A DNA stretch of 64,000 nt from Variovorax sp. HW608 (GTDB lineage: Bacteria > Pseudomonadota > Gammaproteobacteria > Burkholderiales > Burkholderiaceae_C). Positions 27,109-62,981 of the stretch are shown piece after piece. The position numbers were made by a program, and so were the translations under genes. Position 1 is the first letter of the stretch; each line of letters starts with the position of its first letter. The stretch covers positions 5,172,229 to 5,236,228 of the forward strand of contig NZ_LT607803.1 of assembly GCF_900090195.1 (NCBI RefSeq), written 5' to 3'. The notes under the pieces were generated by a model, which was given only the letters and a program-made list of their open reading frames with translations, was not told the origin of the DNA and did no database searches.

Positions 27109-28488
27109 ATGAGGAAATCGCTTTGGACTCTTGCGATCGTCACAAGCGTGCTGGCCGTGCCCATGGCCCACGCCGCCGACCCGCAGGTGGATGAACTCAA
27201 GGCCCAGCTTCAGCAGGCCTTGAAGACGATCGAGGACATGCAGCGGCGTGTCGAGACGCTGGAGCGGCAGCAGCAGGCGCAGCAGCCTGCACCAGCTGCC
27301 GCGCAGGCGCCCGCGGGCGCGCCGGCTGGTGCGCCGGCCGGTGCGCTCGTGATCGCACCCCGCTCGGTCGCCGACGAGAACGCACCGGACAAGGACAAGG
27401 CGCATGTCGAGTTCTACGGCCAGGTGATGATCGACGCGATCTACGACGCCAAGCGCATGAACCCGCAGTGGGCCGCGACGCTGCGGCCCTCGCAGATCCC
27501 GGTCAACTGCCCGGGCGATGCGGGCTGCGGCAAGGACGGCGCCACCACCTTCAGCGTGCGGCAGTCGAGCCTCGGCTTCAAGTCGTTCATCCCGACCACC
27601 TACGGCCAGATCAAGACCGACGTGAGCTTCGATCTCTTCGGCTCCGATGGCGGCACCCACGTCCACTGGCTCAACGTGTGGGGCGAGCTCGGCGCGTTCG
27701 GCGTCGGGCAGTACTACTCGAACTTCATGGACATCGACGTGTTCCCGAACACGATCGACTACTGGGGACCGAGCGGCATGATGTTCCTGCGCAACCCGCA
27801 GCTGCGCTACACGCCGCTCGACCGCGACGGCATGAAGGTCGCGCTGTCGCTCGAAGCGCCGAATTCCGCGATCGACACCGGCAAGCTCACGCAAGTGGAC
27901 CCGGCCTTCGGCACCGGCATCCAGCCGTGGAACCGCACGCCGGACGCGATCGCGTCGTTCCGGCTCGAAGGCGACTGGGGCCATGCGCGCGCGGCCGGCA
28001 TGGTGCGCGAGGTGGGCTACCAGTTCGTGAACACGCCGGGCGCCAATCCGTCGGGCCACAAGACCGGCTACGGGGTGAACCTCTCGGGCGCCTTCAAGTT
28101 CTTCGGCGGCAAGGATTCGATGACCTGGCAGGCCGCCTACGGCCATGCGATCGCAAGCTATGCGAACGACGGCGGCGTGGACCTCGCGCCGGGCGCCACC
28201 CTGCGTGCCGAGACGGTGCCTTCAGCCGCCTGGCTGCTCTACTACAACCACGCCTGGAGCGCGCAATGGTCCAGCGCGATCGGCTACAGCGAGCACCGCC
28301 AGAGCAACACGGACGGCCAGTTCGGCAGCGCCTTCCACAAGGGCAGCTACGCGTCGGCGAACGTCCTCTTCTACCCGACGAAGAACATCACGACCGGCCT
28401 CGAATACCTCTGGGGCCGGCGCGAGAACAAGGACGGCGCCTCGGAACCCGATTCGCGGCTGCAGTTCTCGACCAAGGTCACTTTCTAA
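27109..28488 (+). CDS. DcaP-like outer-membrane porin
   Basis: 459 aa. Signal peptide ending AHA-AD (residue 23), a short coiled-coil segment (VDELKAQLQQALKTIEDMQ and following), an Ala/Pro/Gly linker, then a beta-barrel region beginning HVEFYGQVMIDAIYDA and ending in LQFSTKVTF with the C-terminal Phe of outer-membrane proteins. The coiled coil plus barrel is characteristic of DcaP-family porins for dicarboxylic acids. Here it opens an arginine/ornithine gene set, so an amino-acid or polyamine permeant is possible. Confidence 0.85.
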   Translation: MRKSLWTLAIVTSVLAVPMAHAADPQVDELKAQLQQALKTIEDMQRRVETLERQQQAQQPAPAAAQAPAGAPAGAPAGALVIAPRSVADENAPDKDKAHVEFYGQVMIDAIYDAKRMNPQWAATLRPSQIPVNCPGDAGCGKDGATTFSVRQSSLGFKSFIPTTYGQIKTDVSFDLFGSDGGTHVHWLNVWGELGAFGVGQYYSNFMDIDVFPNTIDYWGPSGMMFLRNPQLRYTPLDRDGMKVALSLEAPNSAIDTGKLTQVDPAFGTGIQPWNRTPDAIASFRLEGDWGHARAAGMVREVGYQFVNTPGANPSGHKTGYGVNLSGAFKFFGGKDSMTWQAAYGHAIASYANDGGVDLAPGATLRAETVPSAAWLLYYNHAWSAQWSSAIGYSEHRQSNTDGQFGSAFHKGSYASANVLFYPTKNITTGLEYLWGRRENKDGASEPDSRLQFSTKVTF

Positions 28489-28492
28489 GACC

Positions 28493-30754
28493 ATGCAGTT
28501 CCAGTCCAGCTTCCCGATCCTCATCGCGCATCGCGACGTCGGCGCCCCCTCGGTCGCGGGCGTGCGCATCCGCCAGATCCAGGACGAGCTCGAACGCAAC
28601 GGGTGGAAGACGATCGCCGTCGCCGGGCAGTCCGATGCCGGCATCGTCGCCGGCGCGCATCGCGGGCTGTCCGCCATCGTGCTGAGCGCCGAGCCCGCGC
28701 GCGGCGATGCGGAGATGCTCAAGCGCCTGGTCGAGGAAATGCACAAGGTGCACGAGCGCGCGCCGCTGTTGCCGATCATCGCGCTCGGCGAATCGGCCGC
28801 GCTGGAGAAGGGCTCGGCGGCGGTGGTCGAGGCGCTGCGCCACCTGCACAGCGTCATCTACCTGTACGAGGACACGGTGCCCTTCCTGGCGCGGCAGATC
28901 ATGCGCGCCGCATCGGAATACCTGGAGAACCTGCTGCCGCCGTTCTTCAAGGCCCTCGCGCACCACGCGGAGCGCTCGGCCTATTCGTGGCACACGCCGG
29001 GCCATGCGGGCGGCATCGGCTTCACCAAGTCGCCGGTGGGCTTCGCGCTGCACGAGTTCTTCGGCGAGAACACGCTGCGCTCGGACCTCTCGGTCTCGGT
29101 GCCGGAACTCGGCTCGCTGCTCGACCACACCGGGCCGGTGAAGGAGGCCGAAGCCTACGCTGCGAGCGTGTTCGGCGCCGACCACACCTATTTCGTCACC
29201 AACGGCACTTCGACCGCCAACAAGATCGTCTGGCATTCGATGGCGGGGCGCGGCGACCTCGTGGCGGTGGACCGCAATTGCCACAAGTCGCTCCTGCACT
29301 CGCTCGTCATGACCGGCGCGACGCCGGTGTACTTCATGCCGTCGCGCAACGACTACGGGATCATCGGGCCGATCGGCCTGGATCAGTTCTCGCCCGAGGC
29401 CATGCGAAGGCGCATCGCGGCGAGCCCGATCGCGCGCGGCCACAAGGGGCAGGTCCGCATCGCGGTGATCACCAACTCCACCTACGACGGCCTTTGCTAC
29501 AACGCCGAGATGATCAAGGCGAAGGTGACCGACCAGGTCGACGCCCTGCATTTCGACGAGGCCTGGTACGCCTACGCGGCCTTCCACGAGTTCTATTCGG
29601 GCCGGCACGCGATGGGCGTGCCGCGCGGCCATCCGCGCGCGGACCACACGCTGGTCTTCGCGACGCAATCGACGCACAAGCTGCTCGCCGCCTTCTCGCA
29701 GGCCTCGATGATCCACATCCAGGAGTCCGAGAAGCGCAAGATCGACACGACCCGCTTCAACGATGCCTTCATGATGCACGGGTCGACATCGCCCCACTAC
29801 GGGATCATCGCGTCGCTCGACGTCAGCGCCGCGATGATGGACGGCCCGGCTGGCCGCTCGATCGTCCAGGAGACGCATGACGAGGCGATGAACTTCCGCC
29901 ATGCGCTGGCGGCGGTGGGCGAGGGCTTCAGGCGCGGCTGGTGGTTCCAGGTCTGGCAGCCCGAGAAGCTCGACCTGAAGAAGCCGCCGAAGACCTCCGA
30001 CTGGGTGCTGGCGCCGAACGCGGCCTGGCACGGCTTCGGCAAGGTGGCGAGCGACTACGTGATGCTCGACCCGATCAAGGTCACGCTGCTCACGCCGGGC
30101 CTGGGCAGCGGGGGGAAGCTCGGCAAGACGGGCATCCCCGCATCGATCGTCACCAAGTACCTCTGGGAGCGCGGCCTCGTGGTCGAGAAGACCGGCCTGT
30201 ACAGCTTCCTGATCCTGTTCTCGCTCGGCATCACGCGCGGCAAGTGGACCACGATGGTCGATGCGCTGGTCGATTTCAAGACCGACTACGAGGGCAACGC
30301 GCCCCTGTCGAGAGTGCTCCCCAGTGTGGTCGCGGCCGGCGGCGCCACCTACAAGCGCATGGGCCTGCGCGACCTCTGCGAGGCGCTGCATGCCTGCTTG
30401 CGGGACAACGACTCCGCGCGCGCGATGAACGCGATGTACACCGAGTTGCCCGAGCCCGCGATGATCCCCGCCGAAGCCTACGACCGGCTGGTGCACGGGC
30501 ATGTGGAACCGGTGCCGATCGAGGCGCTCAAGGGCCGCGTCGCGGCGGTGATGCTGGTGCCGTATCCGCCGGGCATTCCGCTGATCATGCCCGGCGAGCG
30601 CTTCGGCACGGATTCGATCATCGAATACCTGAAGTTCGCGCGCGATTCGGACGACCGGTTCCCGGGCTTCGAATCGGACATCCACGGTCTCAGGTTCGAG
30701 GTCGACCGCAACGGGGGGAGGCACTGGCAGGTCGATTGCGTCAAGGAGGGCTAG
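28493..30754 (+). CDS. Orn/Lys/Arg decarboxylase, arginine/lysine type
   Basis: 753 aa fold-type I PLP decarboxylase: N-terminal receiver-like wing domain (about 1-130), PLP domain with the Schiff-base Lys near residue 396 in QSTHKLLAAFSQASM, substrate motif TPGHAGG and HFDEAWYAY, then the C-terminal domain with PYPPGIPLIMPGE. The STHK-type lysine region resembles arginine and lysine decarboxylases (AdiA/LdcC), so agmatine or cadaverine is the likely product. It starts 5 bp after the porin gene with no visible ribosome site, so it depends on upstream translation. Confidence 0.85.
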   Translation: MQFQSSFPILIAHRDVGAPSVAGVRIRQIQDELERNGWKTIAVAGQSDAGIVAGAHRGLSAIVLSAEPARGDAEMLKRLVEEMHKVHERAPLLPIIALGESAALEKGSAAVVEALRHLHSVIYLYEDTVPFLARQIMRAASEYLENLLPPFFKALAHHAERSAYSWHTPGHAGGIGFTKSPVGFALHEFFGENTLRSDLSVSVPELGSLLDHTGPVKEAEAYAASVFGADHTYFVTNGTSTANKIVWHSMAGRGDLVAVDRNCHKSLLHSLVMTGATPVYFMPSRNDYGIIGPIGLDQFSPEAMRRRIAASPIARGHKGQVRIAVITNSTYDGLCYNAEMIKAKVTDQVDALHFDEAWYAYAAFHEFYSGRHAMGVPRGHPRADHTLVFATQSTHKLLAAFSQASMIHIQESEKRKIDTTRFNDAFMMHGSTSPHYGIIASLDVSAAMMDGPAGRSIVQETHDEAMNFRHALAAVGEGFRRGWWFQVWQPEKLDLKKPPKTSDWVLAPNAAWHGFGKVASDYVMLDPIKVTLLTPGLGSGGKLGKTGIPASIVTKYLWERGLVVEKTGLYSFLILFSLGITRGKWTTMVDALVDFKTDYEGNAPLSRVLPSVVAAGGATYKRMGLRDLCEALHACLRDNDSARAMNAMYTELPEPAMIPAEAYDRLVHGHVEPVPIEALKGRVAAVMLVPYPPGIPLIMPGERFGTDSIIEYLKFARDSDDRFPGFESDIHGLRFEVDRNGGRHWQVDCVKEG

Positions 30755-30757
30755 CCT

Positions 30758-30811
30758 CATGAGCCGCCGGGCCGCCCCAAGGCGAATACCGCAGCGCTGC
30801 TGCGCGGAGGT
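30758..30811 (+). repeat. 54-bp repeat, copy 1
   Basis: A 54-bp sequence identical to 42105-42158. It contains a 6-bp hairpin (CGCAGC at 30790-30795, GCTGCG at 30799-30804, loop GCT) placed immediately before a GGAGGT ribosome site. It lies between two decarboxylase genes and supplies the start of a bridging mini-ORF. Perfect identity across 11 kb, between unrelated gene pairs, indicates a mobile or conserved dispersed element. Confidence 0.85.
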
Positions 30812-30821
30812 TGACCAATGA
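30759..30821 (+). CDS. Bridging mini-ORF (20 aa), copy 1
   Basis: A 21-codon frame that begins 4 bases after the first decarboxylase stop and ends with TGA at 30819-30821, overlapping the next decarboxylase ATG at 30818. The product starts MSRRAAPRRIPQRCC and is Arg/Cys-rich. Its final codons carry the GGAGGT ribosome site for the downstream gene. It probably mediates translational coupling; a peptide function cannot be excluded. Confidence 0.45.
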   Translation: MSRRAAPRRIPQRCCAEVDQ

Positions 30822-33193
30822 GCCGTTACGCGAGTTATTCGCTGCAGCCGCAGGCGATTCCGATTCCGCTGCACAAGTACCTGAAGGTGGTCGCCATCGT
30901 CGATGCCGACAACCCGCAGACGAAGGAGCTGCTGGCCCGCCTCGCGGCGAACGGCCTGGAGCTCGAAGTGTCGGGCCGCTTCGAACGCGACCTGGCCGAA
31001 GACGCCGGCGTGGGCGCGTACATCCTCTGGATCGACGGCGACATGCTCGCCAAGGCGCGCGCGCTGATGCGCGAGCTGCGCGGCGTGGGCTTTCGCACGC
31101 CGGTGTGGATCCTCGCGGACTCGCAGCGCATTTCCGACGTGCCGGTGGTGAGCGGCCTCGGCGAGGTCGAGGGCTACGTCTACCTCGGCCAGCAATCGCC
31201 CGAGTTCTATGCCAAGCAGATCGGCGCGAGCCTCGTGAAGTACGGCATGTCGCTCCTGCCGCCGTTCTTCGGCAAGCTCATGGCCTACGACGGCAAGGCG
31301 ACCATCGCCTTCGACTGCCCGGGCCACCAGGGCGGGCAGTTCTACCGCAAGTCGCCCGCGGGGCAGCTCTTCTTCAAGCACTTCGGCGAGAGCATCTTCC
31401 GCAACGACCTGTGCAACGCCGATGTCGAGCTCGGCGACCTCTTGATCCACGAGGGCGCGGCCGACGAGGCCCAGCGCCACGCGGCGCAGGTGTTCGGCGC
31501 CGACCGGACCTACTTCGTGCTCAACGGCACCAGCACCTCGAACAAGATCGTCGCCAATGCGCTGCTTCGGCGCGGCGACCTCGTGCTGTTCGACCGCAAC
31601 AACCACAAGTCGGTGCACCAGGGCGCGCTGGTGCAGGCCGGCGCGGTGCCGGTCTTCCTGCCGACCGCGCGCAACGCCTTCGGGATGATCGGCGCGGTCG
31701 ACTGGGACGCCTGGGACGAGGCCTCGCTGCGCGAGCGCATCCGCGCCCATCCGCTCATCGAGGACAAATCGCGCGCCGACCTGCCGCGCCCGTTCCGCCT
31801 CGCCTGCATCCAGCTCGCGACCTACGACGGCACCGTCTACAACGTGCGCAAGGTGCTGGAGCGCATCGGCCAGCTGTGCGACTACGTGCTGTGGGACGAG
31901 GCATGGATCGGCTACAACGCCTTCCACCCGCTGTTCGCCGACCACAGTCCGATGCGGCTCGGCGAGCTCGGTGCGGATGCGCCGGGGCTCTTTTCGACGC
32001 AGTCGGTGCACAAGCAGGGCGCGGGCTTCTCGCAGGCCAGCCAGATCCACAAGCGCGACGACCACCTGATCGGGCAGCCGCGCTACGTCAACCACCAGCG
32101 CTTCAACGAGTCGTTCCTGATGAACGCCTCGACCTCGCCGTTCTATCCGCTGTTCGCATCGCTCGACGTGAACGCGAAGGTGCACGAAGGCAAGGCCGGC
32201 GAGATGCTGTGGGACCGCTGCATCGAGCTCGGGATCGAGACGCGCAAGAAGTTCCGCGAGTTCGGCCGCCATTTCGCGCAGACCGGGCGCAATGCGGCCG
32301 AACAGTGGTTCTTCGATCCCTTCGTGCCAGACCGGGTGACGATCAAGGGCTCGCCGTTCATGGAGGACGTGAGCGACGTGCCGTGGGAAAGCCTCGCCAC
32401 CGACGTGATCAAGCGCGAGCAGCAGTGCTGGAACTTCGACCCCAGAGCGCGCTGGCACGGCTACGCCGGCTACGTGGACGGCTACGCCATGGTCGACCCG
32501 AACAAGCTGATGCTGCTGACACCGGGCATCGACCGTGCCACCGGCGAGTACCTCGATTTCGGCGTGCCGGCGACCGTGGTCGCGAACTACCTGCGCGAGC
32601 AGCGCATCGTGCCCGAGAAGTGCGATCTCAACAGCATCCTCTTCCTGATGACGCCGGCGGAGGACGAAAGCAAGCTCAACAGCCTGATCGCCAAGCTCGT
32701 GAAGTTCAAGAACCTGTGGGACGAGGACGCGATGCTGCAGGACGTGCTGCCGTCGCTCTACGCCGCCAACGCCGAGCGCTATGCCGGCTACACCCTGCGG
32801 CAGGTCTGCAACGAGATGCATGCGTTCTACCGCGACGCCAACGTCAAGGGCCTGCAGGGCCGGTGCTTCCGCGCCGACAGCTTCCCCGAGCTCGCGATGC
32901 TGCCGCAGGACGCCTACCGCGCGCTGGTCGGCAACCAGGTGGACTACGTGCCGCTCACCGAGGCCGAGGGGCGCATCTCGGCGACCTTGGCGCTGATCTA
33001 TCCGCCGGGCATCGGCATCGTGGTGCCGGGCGAGCGATGGGACGAGCGCGCCAAGCCGATGCGGGACTACTTCTGCGCCTTCGAGGAGTCGTTCGGCCGG
33101 TTCCCGGGCTTCAACTACGAAGTGCAGGGGGTGTACCAGGAGCGAGGAAGCGACGGGCGCATCCGCTTCCACACCTACGTGGTGCGCGAATAA
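30818..33193 (+). CDS. Ornithine decarboxylase-like (Orn/Lys/Arg family) enzyme
   Basis: 791 aa PLP enzyme with N-terminal wing domain, PLP Lys near residue 399 in TQSVHKQGAGFSQASQIHK, FDCPGHQGGQF and LWDEAWIGYNAFHPL, and a C-terminal PPGIGIVVPGERW segment. The SVHKQ-A-SQ-SQIHK pattern is that of bacterial SpeC/SpeF ornithine decarboxylases, unlike the STHK form of the preceding paralogue. The product would be putrescine. It is followed by potE, the ornithine/putrescine antiporter, as in speF-potE operons. Confidence 0.87.
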   Translation: MSRYASYSLQPQAIPIPLHKYLKVVAIVDADNPQTKELLARLAANGLELEVSGRFERDLAEDAGVGAYILWIDGDMLAKARALMRELRGVGFRTPVWILADSQRISDVPVVSGLGEVEGYVYLGQQSPEFYAKQIGASLVKYGMSLLPPFFGKLMAYDGKATIAFDCPGHQGGQFYRKSPAGQLFFKHFGESIFRNDLCNADVELGDLLIHEGAADEAQRHAAQVFGADRTYFVLNGTSTSNKIVANALLRRGDLVLFDRNNHKSVHQGALVQAGAVPVFLPTARNAFGMIGAVDWDAWDEASLRERIRAHPLIEDKSRADLPRPFRLACIQLATYDGTVYNVRKVLERIGQLCDYVLWDEAWIGYNAFHPLFADHSPMRLGELGADAPGLFSTQSVHKQGAGFSQASQIHKRDDHLIGQPRYVNHQRFNESFLMNASTSPFYPLFASLDVNAKVHEGKAGEMLWDRCIELGIETRKKFREFGRHFAQTGRNAAEQWFFDPFVPDRVTIKGSPFMEDVSDVPWESLATDVIKREQQCWNFDPRARWHGYAGYVDGYAMVDPNKLMLLTPGIDRATGEYLDFGVPATVVANYLREQRIVPEKCDLNSILFLMTPAEDESKLNSLIAKLVKFKNLWDEDAMLQDVLPSLYAANAERYAGYTLRQVCNEMHAFYRDANVKGLQGRCFRADSFPELAMLPQDAYRALVGNQVDYVPLTEAEGRISATLALIYPPGIGIVVPGERWDERAKPMRDYFCAFEESFGRFPGFNYEVQGVYQERGSDGRIRFHTYVVRE

Positions 33194-33242
33194 CGCGCCG
33201 CAGGTGGAGCGGGCCCAGCGGACAGCAACCAAGGAGACGACG

Positions 33243-34574
33243 ATGGCAGCCGTTCAGGAAAAGAAGATGGGTGTGATGCAGTTGACCTTCATCGTGACGG
33301 TCAACATGATGGGCTCCGGGATCATCATGCTGCCCGCCAATATGGCGCAGGTCGGCGCGATCTCGCTGCTTTCATGGGTTGTGACCGCGATCGGTTCGCT
33401 CGCGATCGCCTACAGCTTCGCGCAGGCCGGGGTGTTCAACCAGCGCTCGGGCGGCATGGCCGCCTACGCGGAGGATGCCTACGGGAAGGACGGGTACTTC
33501 CTCGTCTTCTTCCTTTACTTCCTGTCGCTTGCGATCGCCAACGTGGCGGTGGCGAGTTCGGCGCTCGGCTATCTCGCGGCGTTCTTCCCCGTCCTCACCG
33601 CCTCCGCCATCTCGACCTGCGCCGGCGTCATCGCGCTGCTGTGGATCACCACGGTCGCCAACTTCGGCGGGCCCAAGCTCACCGGGCGCATCGGCTCGAT
33701 CACGGTGTGGGGCGTGATCCTGCCGGTGGGCTTCATCTCGGTGGCGGGATGGATCTGGTTCAACGGCCACACCTTCGAGGAAGCCTGGAACCCCAAGGGC
33801 GTCAGCCTGTTCGAGGGCATGGGTTCGAGCATCTCGCTGACGCTGTGGGCCTTCCTCGGCATGGAATCGGCGTCGCAGAACGCCTCGGCGGTCGAGAACC
33901 CCAAGCGGGACGTGCCGCTCGCCTGCATGTTCGGCACGCTCGGCGCGGCGGTGATCTACATCCTCTCGACCACCGTGATCCAGGGCATCGTTCCGAATGC
34001 CGAGCTGGCCAAGTCCACCGGCCCGTTCGGGCTCGCCTACACGCAGATGTTCAACCCGGCGGTCGGCCAGACCGTGATGGCGCTGGCGGCGATGGCCTGC
34101 GTCGGCTCGCTGCTGGGCTGGCAGTTCACGCTCGCGCAGACCGCCAAGGACGCCGCCGACACCCACATGTTCCCGGCCATCTTCGGCAAGGCCAGCGCGG
34201 CCGGCGCGCCGATCGCGGGCATGGTGATCATGGGTGTCGTGCAGTCGGTCATGGCCCTGTCCACGATCTCGCCGGACCTGAGCAAGCAGTTCGCGGCGCT
34301 GGTCAACCTCGCGGTGGTGACCAACGTGGTGCCCTACATCGTCTCGCTCTCGGCGCTGTTCGTGATCATGCGCAACGCGGGCGTCGAGCCCGGCGTCTAC
34401 AAGCGCAACGCGGTCATCGCGGTGATCGCGATGCTGTATTCGGTGTACGCGCTCTACGCCTCGGGCAAGGACGCGGTGCTCGGCGGCATGCTGGTGATGG
34501 CGATCGGCTTCGTCATCTACGGCTTCATCGCGCCGCGCTTCGTGACCCGGACGGCGGCCGCCCGCGCGGCGTAA
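33243..34574 (+). CDS. potE: Putrescine-ornithine antiporter
   Basis: 443 aa APC-superfamily carrier with about 12 TM segments. Stretches such as [21 protein letters not shown] and [11 protein letters not shown] align closely with remembered E. coli PotE, including the start region and overall length. It exchanges extracellular ornithine for intracellular putrescine, or takes up putrescine with protons. ATG at 33243 is preceded by AAGGAGACGACG. It directly follows the ornithine decarboxylase gene. Confidence 0.93.
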
Positions 34575-34589
34575 GAGGAGGGCCAGACC

Positions 34590-35495
34590 ATGCGATCCAT
34601 CCAATTCCGAAGCGCCGTCCTCGCGCTGATCGGCGCCGCGCTGCTGCATGCGGGTGCCGCATTCGCTGCCGGCACGCTCGACAAGCTGCGCGAATCCGGC
34701 AAGTTCGTCGTCGGCTACGTCGCAGACGGCTCGTCGCTCACGCAGAAGGACGCGACCGGCAAGATCACCGGCTATGCGATTGCGCTGTGCACCAAGGTCG
34801 GCGAAGCGGCCAAACAAGAACTGAAGTTGTCGGCACTCGCCGTCGAGCTTGTCCAGGTGTCGATGGAAGAACGCTTCAGCGCCGTCTCACAGGGCAAGAT
34901 CGACATGCTGTGCGGCGCGGTGCCGACGCTGGAGCGCCGGGCCGAGGTCAGCTTCTCGATCCCGGTCGGCTTCGTCGGCGTCAATGCGGTCATCCGTTCC
35001 GACGCGCCGGTGCGCCTCGCGCAGGTGCTGACCGGGCGGGAACCCCCCGCGCCGGTGATCTGGCGCGGCACCAACGCGCCGGAGCGGCGCGTGCTCGCGG
35101 TGGTCGGCGGTTCGACGGTGGAACGTGCGCTGGCCGACAAGCTCGCCGAACGGCGCATCGCGATCGACGTGGTCTCGGTCAAGGACACCACCGAAGGCGT
35201 GCAGGCGGTGGTCGACCGCCGCGCCGATGCCTTCTTCGACGGGCGGCCGCTGCTGCTCGACGCGGTGGCGCGCAGCCCGGCCAAGTCGAACCTCGTGGTG
35301 CTCGACCGCCTCTTCAGGCGCGAGCTGCTCGCGTTGGCGATCCGGCGCAACGACGACGACTTCCGCCTCACGGTGGATCGCGCGCTGAGCCGCGTCTACC
35401 GCTCGCCCGAACTGCCCACCATCTACCGGACCTATCTGAAGGAGCCGGACCGGGAGGCGCTCGAATTCTTCGAGCTCATGGCCCTGCCCGAATAG
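34590..35495 (+). CDS. Amino-acid ABC transporter substrate-binding protein (family 3)
   Basis: 301 aa periplasmic protein: signal peptide ending AFA-AG (about residue 27), then a bacterial extracellular solute-binding family 3 fold ([42 protein letters not shown]). No permease or ATPase gene is adjacent, so it is an orphan receptor that serves a transporter elsewhere or acts in sensing. Arginine, ornithine or glutamate are plausible ligands given its neighbours. Confidence 0.85.
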
Positions 35496-35527
35496 ACATC
35501 CACGCACCAGCACGAAGGAGGCACGAT

Positions 35528-36751
35528 ATGCAAAAGCTTGGAGTGCACAGCGAAGTCGGCAAGCTCAGGACCGTGATGGTCTGCCGGCCGGGACTCGCCC
35601 ATCAGCGCCTGACGCCGGGCAACGCGGCGGAGCTGCTGTTCGACGACGTCCTGTGGGTTCAGGAAGCGCAGAAGGACCACTACGACTTCGTGCTCAAGAT
35701 GCGCGAGCGCGGCGCCGAGGTGCTCGACCTGCATGAACTGCTCGCCGAAACCTTGAAGGACACCGAGGCGCGCGCATTCGTGCTCGACCGCCGCATCACG
35801 GTCAACGACGTGGGGCTCGGTGTGAAGCACCTTCGCGCCTGGCTGGACCAGATGCCGGCCGAGAAACTGGCCGAGCACCTGATCGGCGGCATCGCGATCC
35901 TCGACGTGCCCAAGAGCGAGTGGTCGACCCTGCTCGAGGACGCGATGGGCGGCACCGACTTCCTGCTGCCGCCGATCCCGAACACGCTGTTCCAGCGCGA
36001 CCCCTCGTGCTGGATCTACAACGGCGTGACCTGCAACCCGATGTACTGGCCGGCGCGCAAGCCCGAGACGCTGCTGCAGCGTGCGGTCTACAAGTTCCAT
36101 CCGCGGTTCAAGGGGGCGGACTTCAAGATCTGGTGGGGCGATTCGGACGAGAACTTTGGCGCATCGACCATGGAAGGCGGCGACGTGATGCCGGTCGGCA
36201 AGGGCGTGGTGCTGATCGGCATGGGCGAGCGCACGACGCGGCAGGCGGTGTTCCAGGTCGCGCAGCAGTTGTTCGCGCACAAGGCTGCCGAACGCGTGAT
36301 CGGCTGCCTGATGCCCAAGAGCCGTGCGGCGATGCACCTGGACACGGTGTTCAGCTTCTGCGACCGCGAGGTCGTGACCGCATTCCGCGAGGTGTCCGAC
36401 CAGGTGCGCTGCTACAGCGTGCGGCCGGGCAAGGGCGAGGCGCTCGACATCCGGGCCGACAAGGGGCATCTGTTCGACGTCGTGAGGGAGGCCCTGGGCA
36501 TCCCCAAGATGCGCGTGGTCGACACCGGCGGCAACGCCTGGCAGGCCCAGCGCGAGCAATGGGACGACGGCAACAACGTCGTCGCGCTCGAACCCGGCGT
36601 GGTGGTGGCCTACGACCGCAACACGCATACCAACACGCTGCTGCGCAAGGCGGGCATCGAAGTGATCACGGTGCGCGGCGCGGAACTCGGACGCGGGCGT
36701 GGGGGCGGTCATTGCATGACCTGTCCCATCTCGCGCGATCCAGCCTACTGA
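35528..36751 (+). CDS. arcA: Arginine deiminase
   Basis: 407 aa guanidino-modifying enzyme converting arginine to citrulline and ammonia. The nucleophilic Cys is C396 in [12 protein letters not shown] near the C-terminus, with [12 protein letters not shown] and [23 protein letters not shown] also family-specific. The ATG follows GAAGGAGG. First gene of arcABC; it comes after potE and the binding protein rather than an arcD antiporter. Confidence 0.95.
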
Positions 36752-36763
36752 CAGGAGAGTTAC

Positions 36764-37768
36764 ATGAGCTTCAATCTGCGCAACCGCTCCCTGCTGACCG
36801 TGCAGGACTACACCCAGCGCGAGTTCCGCTACCTGCTCGACCTCGCGCGGGACCTCAAGCGCGCCAAGTACGCGCGCACCGAGCAGCGCCATCTGCTGGG
36901 CAAGCAGATCTGCCTGATCTTCGAGAAGACCTCCACGCGCACCCGCTGCTCGTTCGAGGTGGCCTGCCATGACCAGGGCGCGCACGTGACCTACCTGGAC
37001 CCCGCGGGCTCGCAGATCGGCCACAAGGAATCGTTCAAGGACACGGCGCGCGTGCTGGGCCGCATGTACGACGCGATCGAGTACCGCGGCTCCAGCCAGA
37101 CCGGCGTCGAGACCCTCGCGAAGTACGCGGGCGTGCCGGTCTTCAACGGGCTCACCGACGAATACCACCCGACACAGATGCTCGCCGACGTGATGACCAT
37201 GCGCGAGCACAGCGACCGGCCGATCCACGAGATCAAGTACGCCTTCCTCGGCGACACCCGCAACAACATGGGCCATTCGCTGATGATCGTCGGCTGCCTC
37301 ATGGGCATGGACGTGCGCATCTGCGGACCGAAGTCGCTCTGGCCCGCCGAGGACTACCTGAAGATCGCGCGCGGCCTGGAAAAGCGCTACGGCGGCAAGC
37401 TCACCGTCACCGACGACCCCAAGGCGGCGGTCAAGGGCGTGGACTTCATCCACACCGACGTCTGGGTCTCGATGGGCGAGCCGAAGGAAGTCTGGAAGGA
37501 GCGCATCGACCTGCTCAAGGCCTACCAGGTCAACGCGGAGCTGATGAAGGCCAGCGGCAACCCGCAGGTCAGGTTCATGCACTGCCTGCCCGCGTTCCAT
37601 GACAGCGAGACGGTGCTGGGCAAGCAGATCGCCGAGACCTACGGCATCAGCAACGGCCTCGAAGTCTCCGACGAGGTGTTCGAGTCCGAATCCAACATCG
37701 CCTTCGAGCAGGCCGAGAACCGCATGCACACGATCAAGGCGATCCTGGTCGCGACGATGGGAGACTGA
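36764..37768 (+). CDS. arcB: Ornithine carbamoyltransferase, catabolic
   Basis: 334 aa. Carbamoyl-phosphate motif STRTR at residues 57-61, HPTQ in [11 protein letters not shown] and the ornithine-binding HCLPAF near residue 270. In this arc cluster it phosphorolyses citrulline to ornithine and carbamoyl phosphate. ATG preceded by CAGGAGAG. The anabolic argF would be a separate gene. Confidence 0.95.
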
Positions 37769-37769
37769 C

Positions 37770-38708
37770 ATGCTCATCGTCACCGCGCTCGGCGGAAATG
37801 CGCTGCTGCGACGCGGGCAGCCCATGACCTCGGAGAACCAGCGAGAAAACATCCGTATCGCCGCCAGGGCGCTCGCGCCGGTCGCACGCCAGCACGACAT
37901 GGTGGTCGGCCACGGCAACGGGCCGCAGGTCGGCCTGCTCGCGCTCCAGGGGGCGGCCTACACCGACGTGGAGACCTATCCGCTCGACGTGCTCGACGCC
38001 GAGACCGAAGGGATGATCGGCTACATGATCGAGCAGGAGCTGGGCAACCTGCTGCCTTTCGAGCGGCCCTTCGCGACGCTCCTGACCATGATCGAGGTCG
38101 ACCCGAAGGACCCGGCCTTCGCGAACCCGACCAAGTTCATCGGCCCGGTCTACAGCAAGGAAACCGCCGACCGGCTGGCGGCCGAGAAGGCGTGGGTCTT
38201 CAGGCAGGACGGCGACAAGTGGCGGCGCGTGGTTGCCTCGCCCGAGCCCAGGCGCATCTTCGAGCTGCGGCCGATCAAGTGGCTGCTCGAACAGAACACC
38301 ATCGTGATCGCGGCGGGCGGCGGCGGCATTCCGGCGGCCTACGAGCCCGGCGCTCAGCGCAAGCTGGGCGGCGTCGAATGCGTGATCGACAAGGACCTCG
38401 CCACCGAGCTGCTCGCGCGCGAACTCAAGGCCGACCTGTACGTGATGCTCACCGACGCCGATGCGGTGTACGTGGACTGGGGCAAGCCGATGCAACGCGC
38501 GATCCGCCGCGCATCGCCCGACGCGCTTTCGGCCATGACCTTCGCCGCCGGCTCGATGGGGCCGAAGGTGGCGGCGGCCTGCCGCTTCGCCAAGGCGACC
38601 GGCAAGACCGCCGCGATCGGCGCGCTCGGGGACCTGGAACGCATCATTGCGGGCGAAGCAGGAACCACGGTATCTTCGGCGGCGTCCGGCATCGTGCTGG
38701 CCAGGTAG
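37770..38708 (+). CDS. arcC: Carbamate kinase
   Basis: 312 aa amino-acid kinase family enzyme with [13 protein letters not shown] at the N-terminus, [16 protein letters not shown], and [12 protein letters not shown] around the active site. It makes ATP from carbamoyl phosphate, completing the arginine deiminase pathway. It starts one base after the arcB stop, indicating coupling. Confidence 0.95.
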
Positions 38709-38748
38709 GCTGCCCGCGGGGAGGGACCCGACGGGAGGAGGAGTCCAG

Positions 38749-39390
38749 ATGGAAAACCGTGTTCTCGACCCGATCGACCGCAATTCCGAGATTCTCTTCG
38801 GCCTGTTCATGGTCCTGAGTTTCACCGGCACCTTGAGCGTGGCCACCGCGGGCCAGAAGGAGGTGCGCGAGATGCTCGTCGCGGCGATCGGCTGCAACAT
38901 CGCGTGGGGCTTCGTCGACGGCGTGATGTACGTACTGCGCAACCTCGTCGTGCGGGCGCGCCAGGCCAGGCTCTGGCGCGAGGTGATCGCGGGGGGCGCG
39001 CCCGAGCCGGCCCATGGCCTGATCGCGCAGGAACTCGGCCCGCTCGCGAGCGCCCTCGGGCCCTCCGAGCTGGAGCGCACGCGGCAGTGGATGGTCGCCC
39101 AGCCCGCGCATGTGGCGCCGGTCGCGGCGCTCACGCGACAGGATCTGGTGGGCGGCCTCGGCGTCTTTCTGCTGGTCTTCGCCTCGACCTTTCCGCCGGT
39201 GCTGCCTTTCTTCTTCTTCAGCGAGGTGCGCCCCGCGATGCGCGTGTCGGCCGCCATCGGCATCGCGATCATGTTCCTGTGCGGCTACGAATGGGGGCGC
39301 TACGCGGGCCTGAAGCCATGGCGCGCGGCGTTCGTGATGGCGGCGCTCGGGGCCGGCATCCAGGCCGTGATCATCGCGCTGGGCGGTTGA
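38749..39390 (+). CDS. VIT1/CCC1-like membrane protein
   Basis: 213 aa with about five hydrophobic segments. The N-terminal DRNSEILFGLFMVLSFTGTL and NIAWGFVDGVMYVLRNL resemble VIT1/CCC1 iron/manganese transporters, though divergent. A cytoplasmic loop separates TM2 and TM3. The start at 38749 has a strong GGGAGGAGG site. Neighbouring arcC and AI-2E genes do not clarify the role. Confidence 0.65.
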   Translation: MENRVLDPIDRNSEILFGLFMVLSFTGTLSVATAGQKEVREMLVAAIGCNIAWGFVDGVMYVLRNLVVRARQARLWREVIAGGAPEPAHGLIAQELGPLASALGPSELERTRQWMVAQPAHVAPVAALTRQDLVGGLGVFLLVFASTFPPVLPFFFFSEVRPAMRVSAAIGIAIMFLCGYEWGRYAGLKPWRAAFVMAALGAGIQAVIIALGG

Positions 39391-39411
39391 CGCAACTAAC
39401 CGGAGACGAGC

Positions 39412-40542
39412 ATGCAGATGCCTCAAGAATCCAACGGCGAACGGGTCTCGCTTGGCGCGTCCGCCCTCATGGACGTGCTGATCCGCGCCGGCCTCGTGAT
39501 CGTGCTCGCGCTGCTGTGCTATCGCGTGTTCTCGCCCTTCCTGACCCTGATCGCGTGGTCGCTGATCCTCGCGGTCACGCTCTATCCGGCCCAGCGGTCG
39601 CTCGCGCGCCGCGTGGGCGGCCGCCAGTGGCTCGCGGCCACGCTGCTGGTGCTCGCGGGCATCGTGCTGATCATCGTGCCGACGGCGGTGCTCTTGAGCT
39701 CGGTCGGCGATTCGGTGCGGCAACTGATCGCCGACGTGCAGAACAACTCGCTGCGCCTGCCCGCGCCGCGCGACAGCGTCGCGAAATGGCCGATCGTCGG
39801 CGAAAGGATCTTCGGGATCTGGTCGCAGGCCTACAACGACCTGCCGGCGCTGGTGCAGAGCCTGCAGCCGAAGATCGGCAACCTCGCGCGCACGGCGCTC
39901 AGCGCGGTCGCGGGCATCGGCGGCGCGCTCCTGATGTTCGTCGCGGCGATCATCGTCGCGGGCATCGTGATGGCCTTCGGCGAGGCCGGCAGCGGGGCCA
40001 TCCGCGCGATCTTCGTGCGCATCATCGGGCCGGCGCGCGGCGTCGAGTTCGCGGACCTCTCCACAGCCACGATCCGCGCGGTGGCGCAGGGCGTGATCGG
40101 CGTCGCCTTCATCCAGGCGATCATCGTCGGCGTGTGCCTGCTGATCGCGGGCATCCCGTGGGCCGGGGTGCTCTCGCTGATCGTGCTGGTGCTCGGCATC
40201 GCGCAGGTGCCGGCGATCATCGTGACCATCCCCGCGATCGCCTGGCTCTGGACGCGTGGCGACCAAAGCACCGGCGCCGCGGTCGCCTACACCGTGCTGC
40301 TGCTGGTCGCGGGCATGGCCGACAACGTGCTCAAGCCGCTGATGCTCGGCCGCGGGGTCGATGCGCCGATGCCCGTGATCCTGATCGGCGCGCTCGGCGG
40401 CATGGCGACCGCGGGCATCCTCGGCATGTTCGTCGGCGCCACCTTGCTCGCGCTCGGCTACCAGATCTTCATGGGCTGGGTCCATACCGGTCCGGCATCG
40501 GGCACGGCGGCGCCGAAAAGCGACCTGCCGGCCGCCGACTGA
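39412..40542 (+). CDS. AI-2E family transporter
   Basis: 376 aa integral membrane protein of the AI-2 exporter (TqsA/YdiK) superfamily with about eight TM segments, including IPWAGVLSLIVLVLGIAQVPAIIV and VLKPLMLGRGVDAPMPVILIGALGGM regions. Members export small molecules or exchange ions. It is followed at 4 bp by an outer-membrane efflux gene, so it may be part of the same transcript. Confidence 0.87.
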   Translation: MQMPQESNGERVSLGASALMDVLIRAGLVIVLALLCYRVFSPFLTLIAWSLILAVTLYPAQRSLARRVGGRQWLAATLLVLAGIVLIIVPTAVLLSSVGDSVRQLIADVQNNSLRLPAPRDSVAKWPIVGERIFGIWSQAYNDLPALVQSLQPKIGNLARTALSAVAGIGGALLMFVAAIIVAGIVMAFGEAGSGAIRAIFVRIIGPARGVEFADLSTATIRAVAQGVIGVAFIQAIIVGVCLLIAGIPWAGVLSLIVLVLGIAQVPAIIVTIPAIAWLWTRGDQSTGAAVAYTVLLLVAGMADNVLKPLMLGRGVDAPMPVILIGALGGMATAGILGMFVGATLLALGYQIFMGWVHTGPASGTAAPKSDLPAAD

Positions 40543-40546
40543 AGGC

Positions 40547-42109
40547 ATGCCGGCCGCGATCCCGCGTTGGCGCACTGCGACCCTGCTCTGGTCCGCATGC
40601 CTGGCGCTGGGCGGCTGCACCATGCTCGGGCCGGACTTCGCGCGGCCCGTGGTGCCCTGGGCGCAGGACTGGTCCGGCAACGCCGGGCGCACGCTCTCCG
40701 CGGATGCTCTGCCGCGCGCGCGGGTCGTGGCCGATGACTGGTGGCGCAGCTTCGACGACCCCGTGCTCGACGATCTCGTGGCCGAGGCCCAGCGCCTCAA
40801 TCCCGGCGTGCGCCTCGCGGCGATGCGCATCCTCGAATCGCGCGCGCAGCTCGGCATCGCGGGCAGCGGCCTCTATCCGCAGGTGCAGCAGGTGAGCGCC
40901 AATGCGCTGCGCGCCGGCCAGCGGCAGTCGCGCGGCGCGAGCACCGCCTTCTGGAGCGCCAGCGCGGGCTTCAACATCGCCTGGGAGATGGACTTCTGGG
41001 GCAAGTACCGCCGCGGCATCGAGTCGGCCGACGCGGGCTACTTCGCGACCATCGCGCAGTACGACGACGTGCAGGTGCTGGTCGCGGCGCAGGCGGCGAG
41101 CCTCTACGGCAGCATCCGAACGACCGAGCTGCGCCTTCGCATCGCGCACGAGAACGCCGAGATCCAGAAGCGCAGCCTCCAGATCACCGAGCGGCTGTTC
41201 AAGAGCGGCAACGAATCCGAGCTCGACGTGCAGCAGGCCCGTTCGCTGTATCTGGGCACGCTGGCGACCATCCCCGAGTTCGAGGGCGTGTTGCGCCAGT
41301 CGCAGAACGCGCTCGCTGTGCTGCTCGGCCGGCCGCCCGGCCCCTTGCCCGAGATGGCGGCCGGGCAGGGCCGCATCCCGCGCGCGGAGCTCGGGCTGAT
41401 CGTCGACGTGCCCGCGGACCTGTTGCGGCGCCGGCCCGACGTGCGCACGGCAGAGATGCAGCTCGCTGCGCAGTCGGCGCTGATCGGGATCAGCGAGGCG
41501 GCGCTCTATCCCTCGATCGCGCTCGGCGGCACGCTCGGCCTGTCGGCCACCTCGATCGCGGGTTCGCCCTCTACGGCGAGCTGGGCGATCGGTCCGGCGC
41601 TGGTGTGGAACGTGTTCGACCACGGCAACCTCAGGAACCAGGTGCTGGTGCAGGACGCGCGCTTCCGCGAGCTGCAGGAGCAGTACCAGAACACGGTGCT
41701 GACCGCCGCGCGCGAGATGGACGATGCCGCGGCCGGCTTCGCGAGCAACCGGGCGCAGATCGATCTGCTCGAAGGCGCGGTGCAGGCCGCGCGCCGCTCG
41801 CTCGACATCGCGACGATCCAGTATCGCGAAGGCCTGGTCGACTTCCAGCGCGTGCTCGATTCGCAGCGCACGCTGTTCAGCCAGCAGGAGCAGCTCGTGA
41901 GCACGCAAGGCAGCGTGGTGCAAAGCCTCGTGGCCCTCTACAAGGCCCTGGGTGGCGGCTGGCAGGCAGCGCGCGAGCGGCCGCTGCCGATCGACGAGGA
42001 AACACGCCGCGCGATGGCCGAACGCAGCGACTGGAAGCCCCTTTTGAACGATCCATTGCCGCCCCCGGGGGCGCAGCCGCCTTCGCGGCAACGGAGCGAA
42101 ATGCCATGA
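40547..42109 (+). CDS. Outer-membrane efflux lipoprotein, OprM/NodT family
   Basis: 520 aa outer-membrane factor. Lipobox LALGGC gives a lipidated Cys at residue 24, then two OEP repeats with long helices (for instance DLLRRRPDVRTAEMQLAAQS). It forms the outer-membrane duct for the HlyD-type adaptor and DUF2955 pump encoded next. Its TGA at 42107-42109 overlaps the ATG of the following mini-ORF. Confidence 0.9.
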   Translation: MPAAIPRWRTATLLWSACLALGGCTMLGPDFARPVVPWAQDWSGNAGRTLSADALPRARVVADDWWRSFDDPVLDDLVAEAQRLNPGVRLAAMRILESRAQLGIAGSGLYPQVQQVSANALRAGQRQSRGASTAFWSASAGFNIAWEMDFWGKYRRGIESADAGYFATIAQYDDVQVLVAAQAASLYGSIRTTELRLRIAHENAEIQKRSLQITERLFKSGNESELDVQQARSLYLGTLATIPEFEGVLRQSQNALAVLLGRPPGPLPEMAAGQGRIPRAELGLIVDVPADLLRRRPDVRTAEMQLAAQSALIGISEAALYPSIALGGTLGLSATSIAGSPSTASWAIGPALVWNVFDHGNLRNQVLVQDARFRELQEQYQNTVLTAAREMDDAAAGFASNRAQIDLLEGAVQAARRSLDIATIQYREGLVDFQRVLDSQRTLFSQQEQLVSTQGSVVQSLVALYKALGGGWQAARERPLPIDEETRRAMAERSDWKPLLNDPLPPPGAQPPSRQRSEMP

Positions 42110-42158
42110 GCCGCCGGGCCGCCCCAAGGCGAATACCGCAGCGCTGCTGCGCGGAGGT
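42105..42158 (+). repeat. 54-bp repeat, copy 2
   Basis: Identical over 54 bases to 30758-30811, including the CGCAGC-GCT-GCTGCG hairpin and the GGAGGT ribosome site. Here it joins the outer-membrane factor gene to the HlyD gene. Just upstream, still inside the preceding gene, is a GC-rich palindromic stretch (GCCCCCGGGGGC at 42060-42071), which makes the C-terminus of that protein look repeat-derived. Confidence 0.85.
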
Positions 42159-42168
42159 CCCCCAATGA
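42106..42168 (+). CDS. Bridging mini-ORF (20 aa), copy 2
   Basis: A 21-codon frame whose ATG overlaps the upstream stop (ATGA at 42106-42109). Its TGA (42166-42168) overlaps the ATG of the HlyD gene at 42165. Product begins MSRRAAPRRIPQRCC as in copy 1, with two different residues near the end. The overlaps on both sides show a fully coupled chain of three frames. Confidence 0.45.
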   Translation: MSRRAAPRRIPQRCCAEVPQ

Positions 42169-43310
42169 GCGATCAAACCGCCACCCCGCCACCTGATCCC
42201 GATGTGCCGCCCGAGGCGCCGGCGCCGGCGCCGAAAGCCGGCGCCGGCACGCGCATCGGCGCGCTGGTGCTGACCGTCCTCATCGTCGGCAGCCTGGTCA
42301 TCTACTTCGTCGGCGACCGCCTCACGCCGAGCACCTCGCAGGCGCGCGTCCAGGCTTTCGTGGTGCCGGTGGCGGCCGAGGTCGGGGGCAAGGTGCTGGC
42401 GGTGCACGTGCGCGACAACGACGAGGTGCAGCCGGGACAGCCCTTGCTCGACATCGATCCCGAGCCCTTCCGCATCGCGCTGCGCCGTTCGCAAGCCGAC
42501 TTCGAATCGGTGCGGCGTTCCGTGCAGGGCTCGGTCGCCGGCGTGGACGCGGCGCGCGCCGCATTGAGCGTCGCCCAGGCCGGCCGCGAGATGGCCGAGC
42601 GCGATGCCAGCCGTCAGGAAAGGCTGCACGACGAAGACCCGGGTGCGATCTCGGTGCGGCGCCTGGAGATCGCGCAGTCCACGCGCGACCAGGCGCGCAG
42701 CCAAGCCAAGCGCGCCGAGGCGGACCTGCGCAAGGCAGAGGAGGCGGCCGGCGACAGCGGGGAGGGCAACGCACAGCTGCAAAGCGCGCGGGCCGCGATG
42801 GAGAAGGCCGAGCTCGACCTCGCGCGCACCCGGGTGCTCGCGCCCGCGCGCGGCAGGGTCACCGACCTGACGACCGACGTGGGCCTGTTCGCGCAGCCCG
42901 GCGCGCCGCTGATGACGCTGATCGCGATGCACGACCTCTGGATCAGCGCCGAGATGACCGAGAACAACCTGGGCAACATCCAACCCGGCAACGAAGCGGC
43001 CATCGCCCTCGACCTGCTGCCGGGGCAGGTGCTCAAGGGGCGCGTGCGCAGCGTGGGCCGCGGCGTGAGCAGCGGCAAGCAAGGCTCGCCCGGGGCCCTG
43101 CCCACGGTCGAGAACAGCCGCGACTGGCTGCGCCAGGCCCAGCGCTTCCCGGTGGTGGTGGAGTTCGACCCGTCCGAACTCGGCCGGCTGCGCGGCGTGC
43201 AGGTGGGCGGCCAGGCGGATGTGCTGGTCTTCACCGGCGACCACCCGGTGATGAACGCCCTCGGCGCGCTCTACATCCGCGTCGTGAGCTGGCTGTCGTA
43301 CCTCTACTGA
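42165..43310 (+). CDS. HlyD-family membrane fusion protein
   Basis: 381 aa adaptor: Pro/Ala-rich cytoplasmic start, one TM segment (IGALVLTVLIVGSLVIYFVG), then a barrel-sandwich domain (VPVAAEVGGKVLAVHVRDN), a long coiled-coil hairpin (about 95-220) and the second lipoyl half (ARTRVLAPARGRVTDL). It resembles EmrA/AaeA-type periplasmic adaptors. It links the outer-membrane factor before it to the DUF2955 membrane pump after it. Confidence 0.9.
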   Translation: MSDQTATPPPDPDVPPEAPAPAPKAGAGTRIGALVLTVLIVGSLVIYFVGDRLTPSTSQARVQAFVVPVAAEVGGKVLAVHVRDNDEVQPGQPLLDIDPEPFRIALRRSQADFESVRRSVQGSVAGVDAARAALSVAQAGREMAERDASRQERLHDEDPGAISVRRLEIAQSTRDQARSQAKRAEADLRKAEEAAGDSGEGNAQLQSARAAMEKAELDLARTRVLAPARGRVTDLTTDVGLFAQPGAPLMTLIAMHDLWISAEMTENNLGNIQPGNEAAIALDLLPGQVLKGRVRSVGRGVSSGKQGSPGALPTVENSRDWLRQAQRFPVVVEFDPSELGRLRGVQVGGQADVLVFTGDHPVMNALGALYIRVVSWLSYLY

Positions 43311-62545: not shown

Positions 62546-62610
62546 GCTCCCGCCCGGCCGTTCCGAAGGGGGCTCGCACCGCAGTGCGAAGCACGGAGGT
62601 TTCCCAATGA
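62542..62610 (+). CDS. Bridging mini-ORF (22 aa), diverged copy
   Basis: A 23-codon frame overlapping the kinase stop (ATGA at 62542-62545) and ending with a TGA at 62608-62610 that overlaps the receiver ATG at 62607. Before the GGAGGT site it carries a 6-bp hairpin, TCGCAC (62574-62579) and GTGCGA (62584-62589), at the same place as the hairpin in the 54-bp repeats. Sequence has diverged but the architecture is the same. Confidence 0.4.
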   Translation: MSSRPAVPKGARTAVRSTEVSQ

Positions 62611-62981
62611 GCGAGCGCAAGATCCTCTACGTCGAGGACAACGCCTACAACCGCAAGATCGTCCGGCAACTGCTGAGCCGGTCGGCCTGCAAGCTCTTTG
62701 AGGCGGCGGACGGCGAGACCGGCGTCGCGCTGGCGCGCAGCGAATTGCCCGACCTGATCCTGATGGACGTGCAGCTGCCGAAGATGTCGGGCCTCGATGC
62801 GACGAAGCTGCTCACCACCGAGGCCGACACGCGTCACATCCCGGTGATCGTCATCACCTCGTATGCGCTGAGCGGCGACCGCGACAAGGCCATGCAGGCC
62901 GGTGCATCGAGCTACATCGCCAAGCCCTACAGCCCGAGCGAGCTGCTGAAGATGGTGAAGCAGTTTCTTCCCGACCTCTGA
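62607..62981 (+). CDS. Single-domain response regulator (DivK/CheY-like)
   Basis: 124 aa receiver with acidic pocket E10/D11, phosphorylation Asp D54 in LILMDVQLPKMSG, conserved T84 and Lys K106 in YIAKPYSP. No DNA-binding domain, so it relays phosphate or controls a partner protein. Coupled through a mini-ORF to the preceding histidine kinase. Confidence 0.9.
   Translation: MSERKILYVEDNAYNRKIVRQLLSRSACKLFEAADGETGVALARSELPDLILMDVQLPKMSGLDATKLLTTEADTRHIPVIVITSYALSGDRDKAMQAGASSYIAKPYSPSELLKMVKQFLPDL

Follow-up and report, generated by a model that had tools for sequence, protein, structure and literature searches.

The 64,000-nucleotide (nt) stretch of the 7.73-Mb chromosome of Variovorax sp. 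HW608 analyzed here (the window; NZ_LT607803.1, positions 5,172,229 to 5,236,228) carries a short repeat at the junctions of neighboring genes (Table 1). Direct comparison of positions 30758-30811 with 42105-42158 yielded 54 identical bases, exactly as a preliminary description of this DNA had claimed, and a chance origin of a shared 54-mer in 64 kb is not credible. The anatomy given in that description was likewise correct: in both copies, a 20-codon, Arg/Cys-rich frame ends in a TGA overlapping the downstream ATG, GGAGGT is present, and the assignment of the junctions (two decarboxylases in one case, an outer membrane factor and its HlyD partner in the other) is supported by matches to PF01276, PF02321, and PF13437/PF16576. 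Upstream of copy 1, a stop/start overlap is absent, and this copy is anchored to a gene on its right side only; the true start of the preceding open reading frame (ORF) is probably further in because its domains begin at residue 139. A third copy, belonging to a 65-nt subtype, lies between two frames that we take, from their motifs, to be histidine-kinase-like (upstream) and response-regulator-like (downstream).

Table 1. Features of the three element copies in the window and of the adjoining genes.
Feature	Position	Strand	Remark
Mini-ORF 1, 20 codons, MSRRAAPRRIPQRCCAEVDQ (stop)	30759..30821	+	From left-hand target ATGA to TGA overlapping the downstream start
Inserted element copy 1, 59 nt, GCCGCC...CCAATGA	30763..30821	+	
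Target ATGA of copy 1	30759-30762	+	Element directly 3'
Hairpin 1, copy 1: outer stem CGCC/GGCG, inner GGG/CCC	30765..30784	+	Support weaker than for hairpin 2
Hairpin 2, copy 1: core GCGC/GCGC, outer ACC pairs with GGT of Shine-Dalgarno sequence	30788..30811	+	Covariation
Shine-Dalgarno GGAGGT, copy 1	30806-30811	+	
Upstream ORF with Orn/Lys/Arg decarboxylase domain (PF01276)	28145..30754	+	TAG end, 4 nt before ATG of copy 1
Downstream Orn/Lys/Arg decarboxylase (PF01276)	30818..33193	+	Start is right-hand ATG of copy 1
Mini-ORF 2, 20 codons, MSRRAAPRRIPQRCCAEVPQ (stop)	42106..42168	+	
Inserted element copy 2, 59 nt	42110..42168	+	
Target ATGA of copy 2	42106-42109	+	Element directly 3'
Shine-Dalgarno GGAGGT, copy 2	42153..42158	+	
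Upstream outer membrane efflux protein (PF02321)	40547..42109	+	TGA is that of left-hand ATGA of copy 2
Downstream HlyD-type adaptor (PF13437/PF16576)	42165..43310	+	Start is right-hand ATG of copy 2 (42165)
Third copy, 65-nt subtype, 22-codon mini-ORF MSSRPAVPKGARTAVRSTEVSQ (stop)	62542..62610	+	Model match 33.8 bits, E 1.1e-6
Inserted DNA of third copy	62546-62610	+	Junction empty in G021, match split in G019
Shine-Dalgarno GGAGGT, third copy	62595-62600	+	
ORF ending at TGA of left-hand ATGA of third copy	60932..62545	+	ORF call only
ORF starting at right-hand ATG of third copy	62607..62981	+	ORF call only

The repeat is abundant in the genome. A model of the element built from 29 copies gave 109 matches at E up to 1, of which the 89 scoring 29.5 bits or more were used (20 weaker or partial matches were left out). 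They are grouped into 70 arrays, of which 16 consist of two to three tandem units. A 17-mer core pattern, allowing up to one mismatch, matched 73 times in the genome, and the reversed pattern not at all. Second-tier copies, including that at 62542-62610, have a different hairpin 1 and are mostly 62 or 65 nt long, with the same ends. For seven element loci, no match up to E 1 was obtained in Rfam, and no description of the element was found among the listed matches from the open-licence PubMed Central (PMC) literature.

The copies sit where one gene ends and the next begins. In 49 of the 70 arrays, the stop codon of the upstream gene is the TGA of a left-hand NTGA tetranucleotide. Over all 70 arrays, this tetranucleotide reads ATGA in 64, CTGA in four, and GTGA in one, and is lost in one. 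Arrays anchored to genes in this manner on both sides number 37, those anchored on the left only 12 (among them L119, counted as 59 nt despite a downstream start displaced by 3 nt beyond the model edge), and those anchored on the right only 15. Left-side anchoring is rare by comparison among the ATGA sites of the window (10/350, element copies included) and among its ATGAGC sites (4/39), and a 4-nt overlap was found at only 18 of 85 annotated starts on Variovorax plasmids, as opposed to 49/70 arrays (Fisher p 9e-10). In a subset of the matches from other genomes (29 loci from other Variovorax and 40 from other genera), 45 of the 69 loci were anchored on both sides (21/29 and 24/40, respectively) and only three on neither side. 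Thus, in this search of the genome and its relatives, with frames and flanks tabulated, copies in random frame and without overlap to neighboring genes were not the rule, and the idea of a coupling cassette put forward in the preliminary description withstood it. The base preceding the target was considered as a possible specificity signal; it is C in 60/70 arrays and in 60/85 annotated starts serving as background, and no such signal is claimed.

Junctions lacking the element are common in related genomes. When the joined flanks of copies 1 and 2 were searched against 81 Variovorax genomes, the orthologous junction of copy 1 was empty in G019 and G021 and element-free in the more distant G337, and that of copy 2 was empty in G021, G345, and further genomes and occupied in G019. 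Across 35 junctions, comparison with the close relative G019 revealed 24 empty sites, nine split matches (taken as occupied), and two matches with 24 or 35 extra bases; for G021, equally a close relative, 30 were empty, none was split, and five had no match among those listed. At base level, no flanking base had been gained or lost in 26 of 30 best-scoring comparisons (23 sites), the insert lying directly 3' of an existing NTGA; three of the remaining comparisons had offsets of 4-6 bases and one had 35 extra bases resembling a remnant of the 65-nt subtype. Five sites are informative as to polarity: at four, a single ATGA in the relative corresponds to a left-hand ATGA and a right-hand GTGA in HW608, and at the fifth, the relative has CTGA where HW608 has CTGA on the left and ATGA on the right. 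Therefore, the target supplies the left NTGA, and the element brings its own right-hand RTGA. Because both close relatives lack the element at most sites and the positions are scattered, we infer insertion in HW608 rather than loss in the relatives.

The length of the inserts is constrained with respect to the reading frame. Counted as copies, those of HW608 are 59 nt (40), 60 nt (27), 62 nt (8), 65 nt (12, the half element L041 described below being counted as 65 nt), 55 nt (1), or 64 nt (1) long, and the 129 best-scoring listed copies in other genomes are 59 nt (64), 60 nt (48), 62 nt (7), 63 nt (4), or of other lengths (6). Expressed as remainders of 2, 0, and 1 upon division by three, this amounts to 60/27/2 copies in HW608 and 71/53/5 elsewhere, lengths of 1 mod 3 thus being rare (7/218). 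In the 2 mod 3 class (59, 62, and 65 nt), the mini-ORF terminates at the TGA that overlaps the next start, whereas in the 0 mod 3 class (60 and 63 nt), it runs into the next gene as an in-frame N-terminal extension, with no downstream overlap. The two classes also differ in their Shine-Dalgarno sequence. Among 66 single copies from other genomes, GGAGG prevails in the 2 mod 3 class (36/44; GAAGG in two) and GAAGG in the 0 mod 3 class (16/20; GGAGG in four). The trend is softer in HW608, where the 2 mod 3 copies have GGAGG in 36/60, GAGGG in 11, GAAGG in five, and other sequences in eight, and the 0 mod 3 copies GGAGG in 4/27, GAGGG in 15, GAAGG in seven, and another sequence in one.

That the repeat is a dispersed gene for a conserved micropeptide, as the preliminary description also considered, could account for the premature stop in only 1 of the 60 2 mod 3 copies of HW608 and for the similar peptides (of the MSPPGRPKGEYRSAQHEGTP type) encoded by 60-nt copies of several genera. 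Yet stops are rare in GC-rich sequence anyway, and different subtypes encode different peptides. Loop 1 of the window's 59-nt subtype is one base shorter than that of the common 59-nt subtype, and its loop 2 is one base longer; these compensating indels keep the total length and shift the frame midway, which changes the middle of the peptide. The two element peptides tested had no match in NCBIfam. Conservation of the micropeptide was thus not borne out, and we regard this explanation as highly improbable.

Taken together, the copy number, the empty sites in relatives, left-side anchoring, lengths that preserve the frame, the class-specific Shine-Dalgarno sequences, and, as described below, the covarying core of hairpin 2 and the independent annotation of PhnK make it likely that the repeat is a translation-transparent, non-autonomous mobile element with NTGA as its target, the coupling part of this proposal being deduced from the anatomy. 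As the comparison with relatives shows, the element (mostly 59-65 nt) sits directly 3' of an NTGA, most often that of an ATGA stop/start overlap. The upstream gene keeps its stop because the left NTGA is retained by the target, and the downstream gene regains a start via the RTGA at the right end of the element, ahead of which now lie the Shine-Dalgarno sequence and hairpin that the element carries. With a 2 mod 3 copy, a ribosome finishing the upstream gene would re-initiate at the left ATG, read the mini-ORF of 20-22 codons, open the hairpin that partly masks GGAGGT, stop at the right TGA, and re-initiate on the overlapping ATG. With a 0 mod 3 copy, translation from the left ATG would read through, the downstream protein gaining an N-terminal extension of 20-21 residues. 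The element could in this way spread at low cost. The same 4-nt overlap underlies termination-reinitiation coupling, and it is found upstream of the element in 49/70 arrays and downstream of it in the 2 mod 3 class; for several ATGA-overlap pairs of E. coli, PMC6728339 reports predicted structure near the downstream start. What differs is that here the module itself would be mobile, inserted between genes that already overlapped. In synthetic bicistronic designs, a short leader ORF with an embedded Shine-Dalgarno sequence has a stop overlapping the next start. That leader layout is alike, and the element could be considered a natural, mobile counterpart, which bears a hairpin and comprises an in-frame fusion class as well. 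The notion of a portable cassette between operon genes therefore stands as far as the anatomy (empty sites, 49/70 left anchoring, and frame-preserving lengths) is concerned, but the phenomenon is broader than claimed, given the second, 0 mod 3 class and the 15/70 arrays without an anchored upstream stop, besides the 6/70 anchored on neither side. The selective reason for the arrangement is most likely the survival of the element itself; its use by the host is possible.

A host-owned regulatory module, that is, an RNA hairpin and Shine-Dalgarno leader tuning the ratio of two coupled genes, would likewise be expected to preserve the frame and to differ in Shine-Dalgarno strength between classes, and the hairpin beside the Shine-Dalgarno sequence, whose outer ACC can pair with GGT, does covary. 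In an alignment of 50 sequences (48 of the 66 single copies from other genomes and the two 59-nt copies of the window), all four core pairs of hairpin 2 were formed in every sequence (4/4), and all four had changes on both sides. The covariation score of the whole structure was 0.195, compared with 0.065 when shuffled and no more than 0.082 when slid along the alignment, the sliding control favoring the tested structure, which had been derived from one of the aligned sequences. The helix in which the outer ACC pairs with GGT of the Shine-Dalgarno sequence was paired in 94.7% of cells, and hairpin 1 in 92%, with one pair failing in 14/50 sequences. Covariation in the hairpin 2 core is nearly all Watson-Crick (G-U pairs in 2/200 cells), which resembles a palindrome in DNA more closely than a typical helix in RNA; the palindrome could therefore equally well act in DNA, as a substrate of mobilization, or in RNA. 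The turnover of positions between close relatives, the existence of tandem copies, and the unrelated functions joined by the window copies examined make a host-owned module improbable.

The element is widespread in the family. In a pattern scan of named genomes, 21 stretches were returned, 20 from Variovorax and one from Xenophilus. At E 0.01 or better, 35 of the 36 other Variovorax genomes examined matched, the exception being 62% complete, although two of the matching ones did so only weakly (2.7e-4 and 0.0025). Within Burkholderiaceae (in the GTDB sense), matches at 1e-5 were found in 100/250 genomes and 75/141 genera. Outside, 4/24 genomes of other families had marginal matches only (8.5e-4 or worse), and in a class-wide sample, 4/274 genomes matched, namely, that of HW608, two more Burkholderiaceae genomes, and one from a different family (E 2.4e-6) with 6% contamination. 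The consensus also matched two Variovorax plasmid records and one from Cupriavidus, and a search of phages with the consensus gave no match. On the plasmid of Variovorax SRS16, the annotated phnJ and phnK share the 4 nt of the element's left-hand ATGA, and PhnK is annotated from the ATG of the element, with 20 element-coded residues (MSRPAVPKANTAALLREGTP) fused in frame at its N-terminus. A tblastn search of plasmids with one such fusion peptide gave no match and is evidently insensitive, since the DNA search had found the fused copy.

In being a short, imperfect palindrome with many copies, no transposase gene of its own, and positions that vary between relatives, the element resembles repetitive extragenic palindromes (REP) and REPINs. 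Unlike these, it sits on stop and start codons and carries a Shine-Dalgarno sequence and a start codon. An insertion site directly after a fixed tetranucleotide is reminiscent of IS200/IS605 chemistry, and mobilization by a REP-associated tyrosine transposase (RAYT) would fit the short, hairpin-forming, high-copy repeat; a Y1_Tnp match was present in 21/23 Variovorax genomes examined, usually one per genome, and a RAYT-like gene of HW608 (L204, G000:C1:4525614-4525904) matched NCBIfam REP_Tyr_transpos with 73.5 bits, below the cut-off of 80. According to PMC2817692, RAYT genes are always flanked by two inverted REPs. Among 13 loci centered on Y1_Tnp genes and reaching ∼1.5-2 kb to either side (one gene is represented twice, and one is IS200-like), none contained an element copy, the best partial score being 13.3 bits. 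Y1_Tnp occurred in 71/100 element-positive and 116/150 element-negative genomes of Burkholderiaceae (Fisher p 0.30, odds ratio 0.72), and 14 of the 31 genomes with at least seven copies (counts per genome being lower bounds) have no Y1_Tnp at all, although past mobilizers could have been lost. REPs also have a GT(A/G)G head on the 5' side of their palindrome (PMC2817692). In 114/155 copies, the element strand contains no GT(A/G)G; where the motif does occur, it mostly follows hairpin 2, at 12 nt from the right end (28 occurrences). With neither flanking copies nor co-occurrence with Y1_Tnp, RAYT was not supported as the mobilizer, and an origin of the element as a REP/RAYT-type palindrome is unlikely.

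Other small mobile repeats are related to the element by general features. Rickettsia palindromic elements (RPE) are also mobile palindromes compatible with reading frames, and the 60-nt class adds ∼20 residues; RPEs are described in PMC10969869 as about 150 bp long and, in nearly half of the cases, inserted into ORFs. The element, in contrast, is less than half that size and found mostly at gene ends and starts, 64/70 arrays being anchored to a gene stop or start instead of lying in frame inside ORFs. BOX and RUP (compared by description only), SPRITE, and prokaryotic miniature inverted-repeat transposable elements (MITE) are likewise small, interspersed, and mobile, and pneumococcal BOX copies are a possible source of stop or start codons, as stated in PMC3049150. 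The element differs from all of these in being junction-specific. Terminal inverted repeats of the MITE type were not found in 155 copies, the first 10 bases agreeing with the reverse-complemented last 10 at 0-5 positions (2-3 positions in 112/155). With respect to a target-site duplication, NTGA stands on both sides, the left one apparently being the target and the right one element-borne: at five sites, the first base on the left is that of the relative and that on the right differs, two sites being ambiguous. For each of REP/RAYT, MITE, and RPE, the element lacks one or more of the defining features that were tested. A distinct class of element, for which a putative recombinase would recognize NTGA overlaps and which would constitute a self-contained coupling module, with two evolved frame strategies and nearly silent to selection, is suggested tentatively.

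Several observations weigh against the proposed mobile, translation-transparent element. In six of the 70 arrays, neither side is anchored, and two 60-nt copies (L037, G000:C1:4378557, and L048, G000:C1:2170634) possibly lie in frame within genes, as RPEs can. The gene calls on which anchoring is based were made by GC-frame scoring, annotation having been used on the plasmid only. Right-side anchoring was found in 52/70 arrays, yet 109/350 ATGA and 16/39 ATGAGC sites of the window pass as well; it is a weak measure because any in-frame internal Met passes, and the comparison of right-hand starts was not used as evidence of the target, the right end being part of the element itself. The anchoring rate itself is a mixture of insertion preference and removal of harmful insertions. 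The choice of best-scoring matches for the 30 base-level comparisons favors contiguous, that is, empty ones, and the tallies of lengths and Shine-Dalgarno sequences represent copies, not independent events. As to polarity, one ambiguous site has GTGA in the relative and ATGA on both sides in HW608, and the other has ATGA in the relative and GTGA on the left in HW608. The hairpin claimed in the preliminary description is supported by covariation across genomes, but the folds of four single copies were no more stable than those of shuffled controls (z 0.28, 0.71, -0.50, and 0.82). Finally, no mobilizing gene was found, the presence of Y1 transposase not tracking that of the element in 250 genomes.

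Small bacterial repeats are usually regarded as intergenic or as disrupting genes. The present one is found where an operon is under the tightest constraint, with both genes apparently still readable. If the tentatively suggested distinct class of element is real, many genes of Burkholderiaceae have received start regions and N-termini made by it. Recurring N-terminal extensions of annotated proteins, such as that of PhnK on the Variovorax plasmid, may trace to the element. With dozens of sites that have or lack the insert in sister species, nature provides replicates for the study of translational coupling, and the element points to a putative site-specific mobilization system.

Three further observations concern incomplete or related sequences. 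L041 (G000:C1:4418093-4418160) is a half element at a gene start, consisting of the right part only (hairpin 2, GGAGC, and ATGA); with an autonomous parent element in mind, its 2.5 kb were searched for a left-half motif and none was found, and no genome-wide search for such a parent was made. At the junction of the outer membrane factor and HlyD genes in G019 (L206, G019:C12:974500-977000), the full copy is preceded by a 15-nt remnant (CGCGGAGGTCACGCA) resembling the right end of another copy, and the sequence looks as if repeated insertions or losses of tandem units had taken place there. Other palindromic repeats, containing a module of the GCCGGGCCGCYCC type and devoid of the Shine-Dalgarno and ATGA ends, were observed at L130 and L132 and in the right flanks of L221, L231, L233, L235, and L242; together with these repeats, the element may form one larger superfamily.

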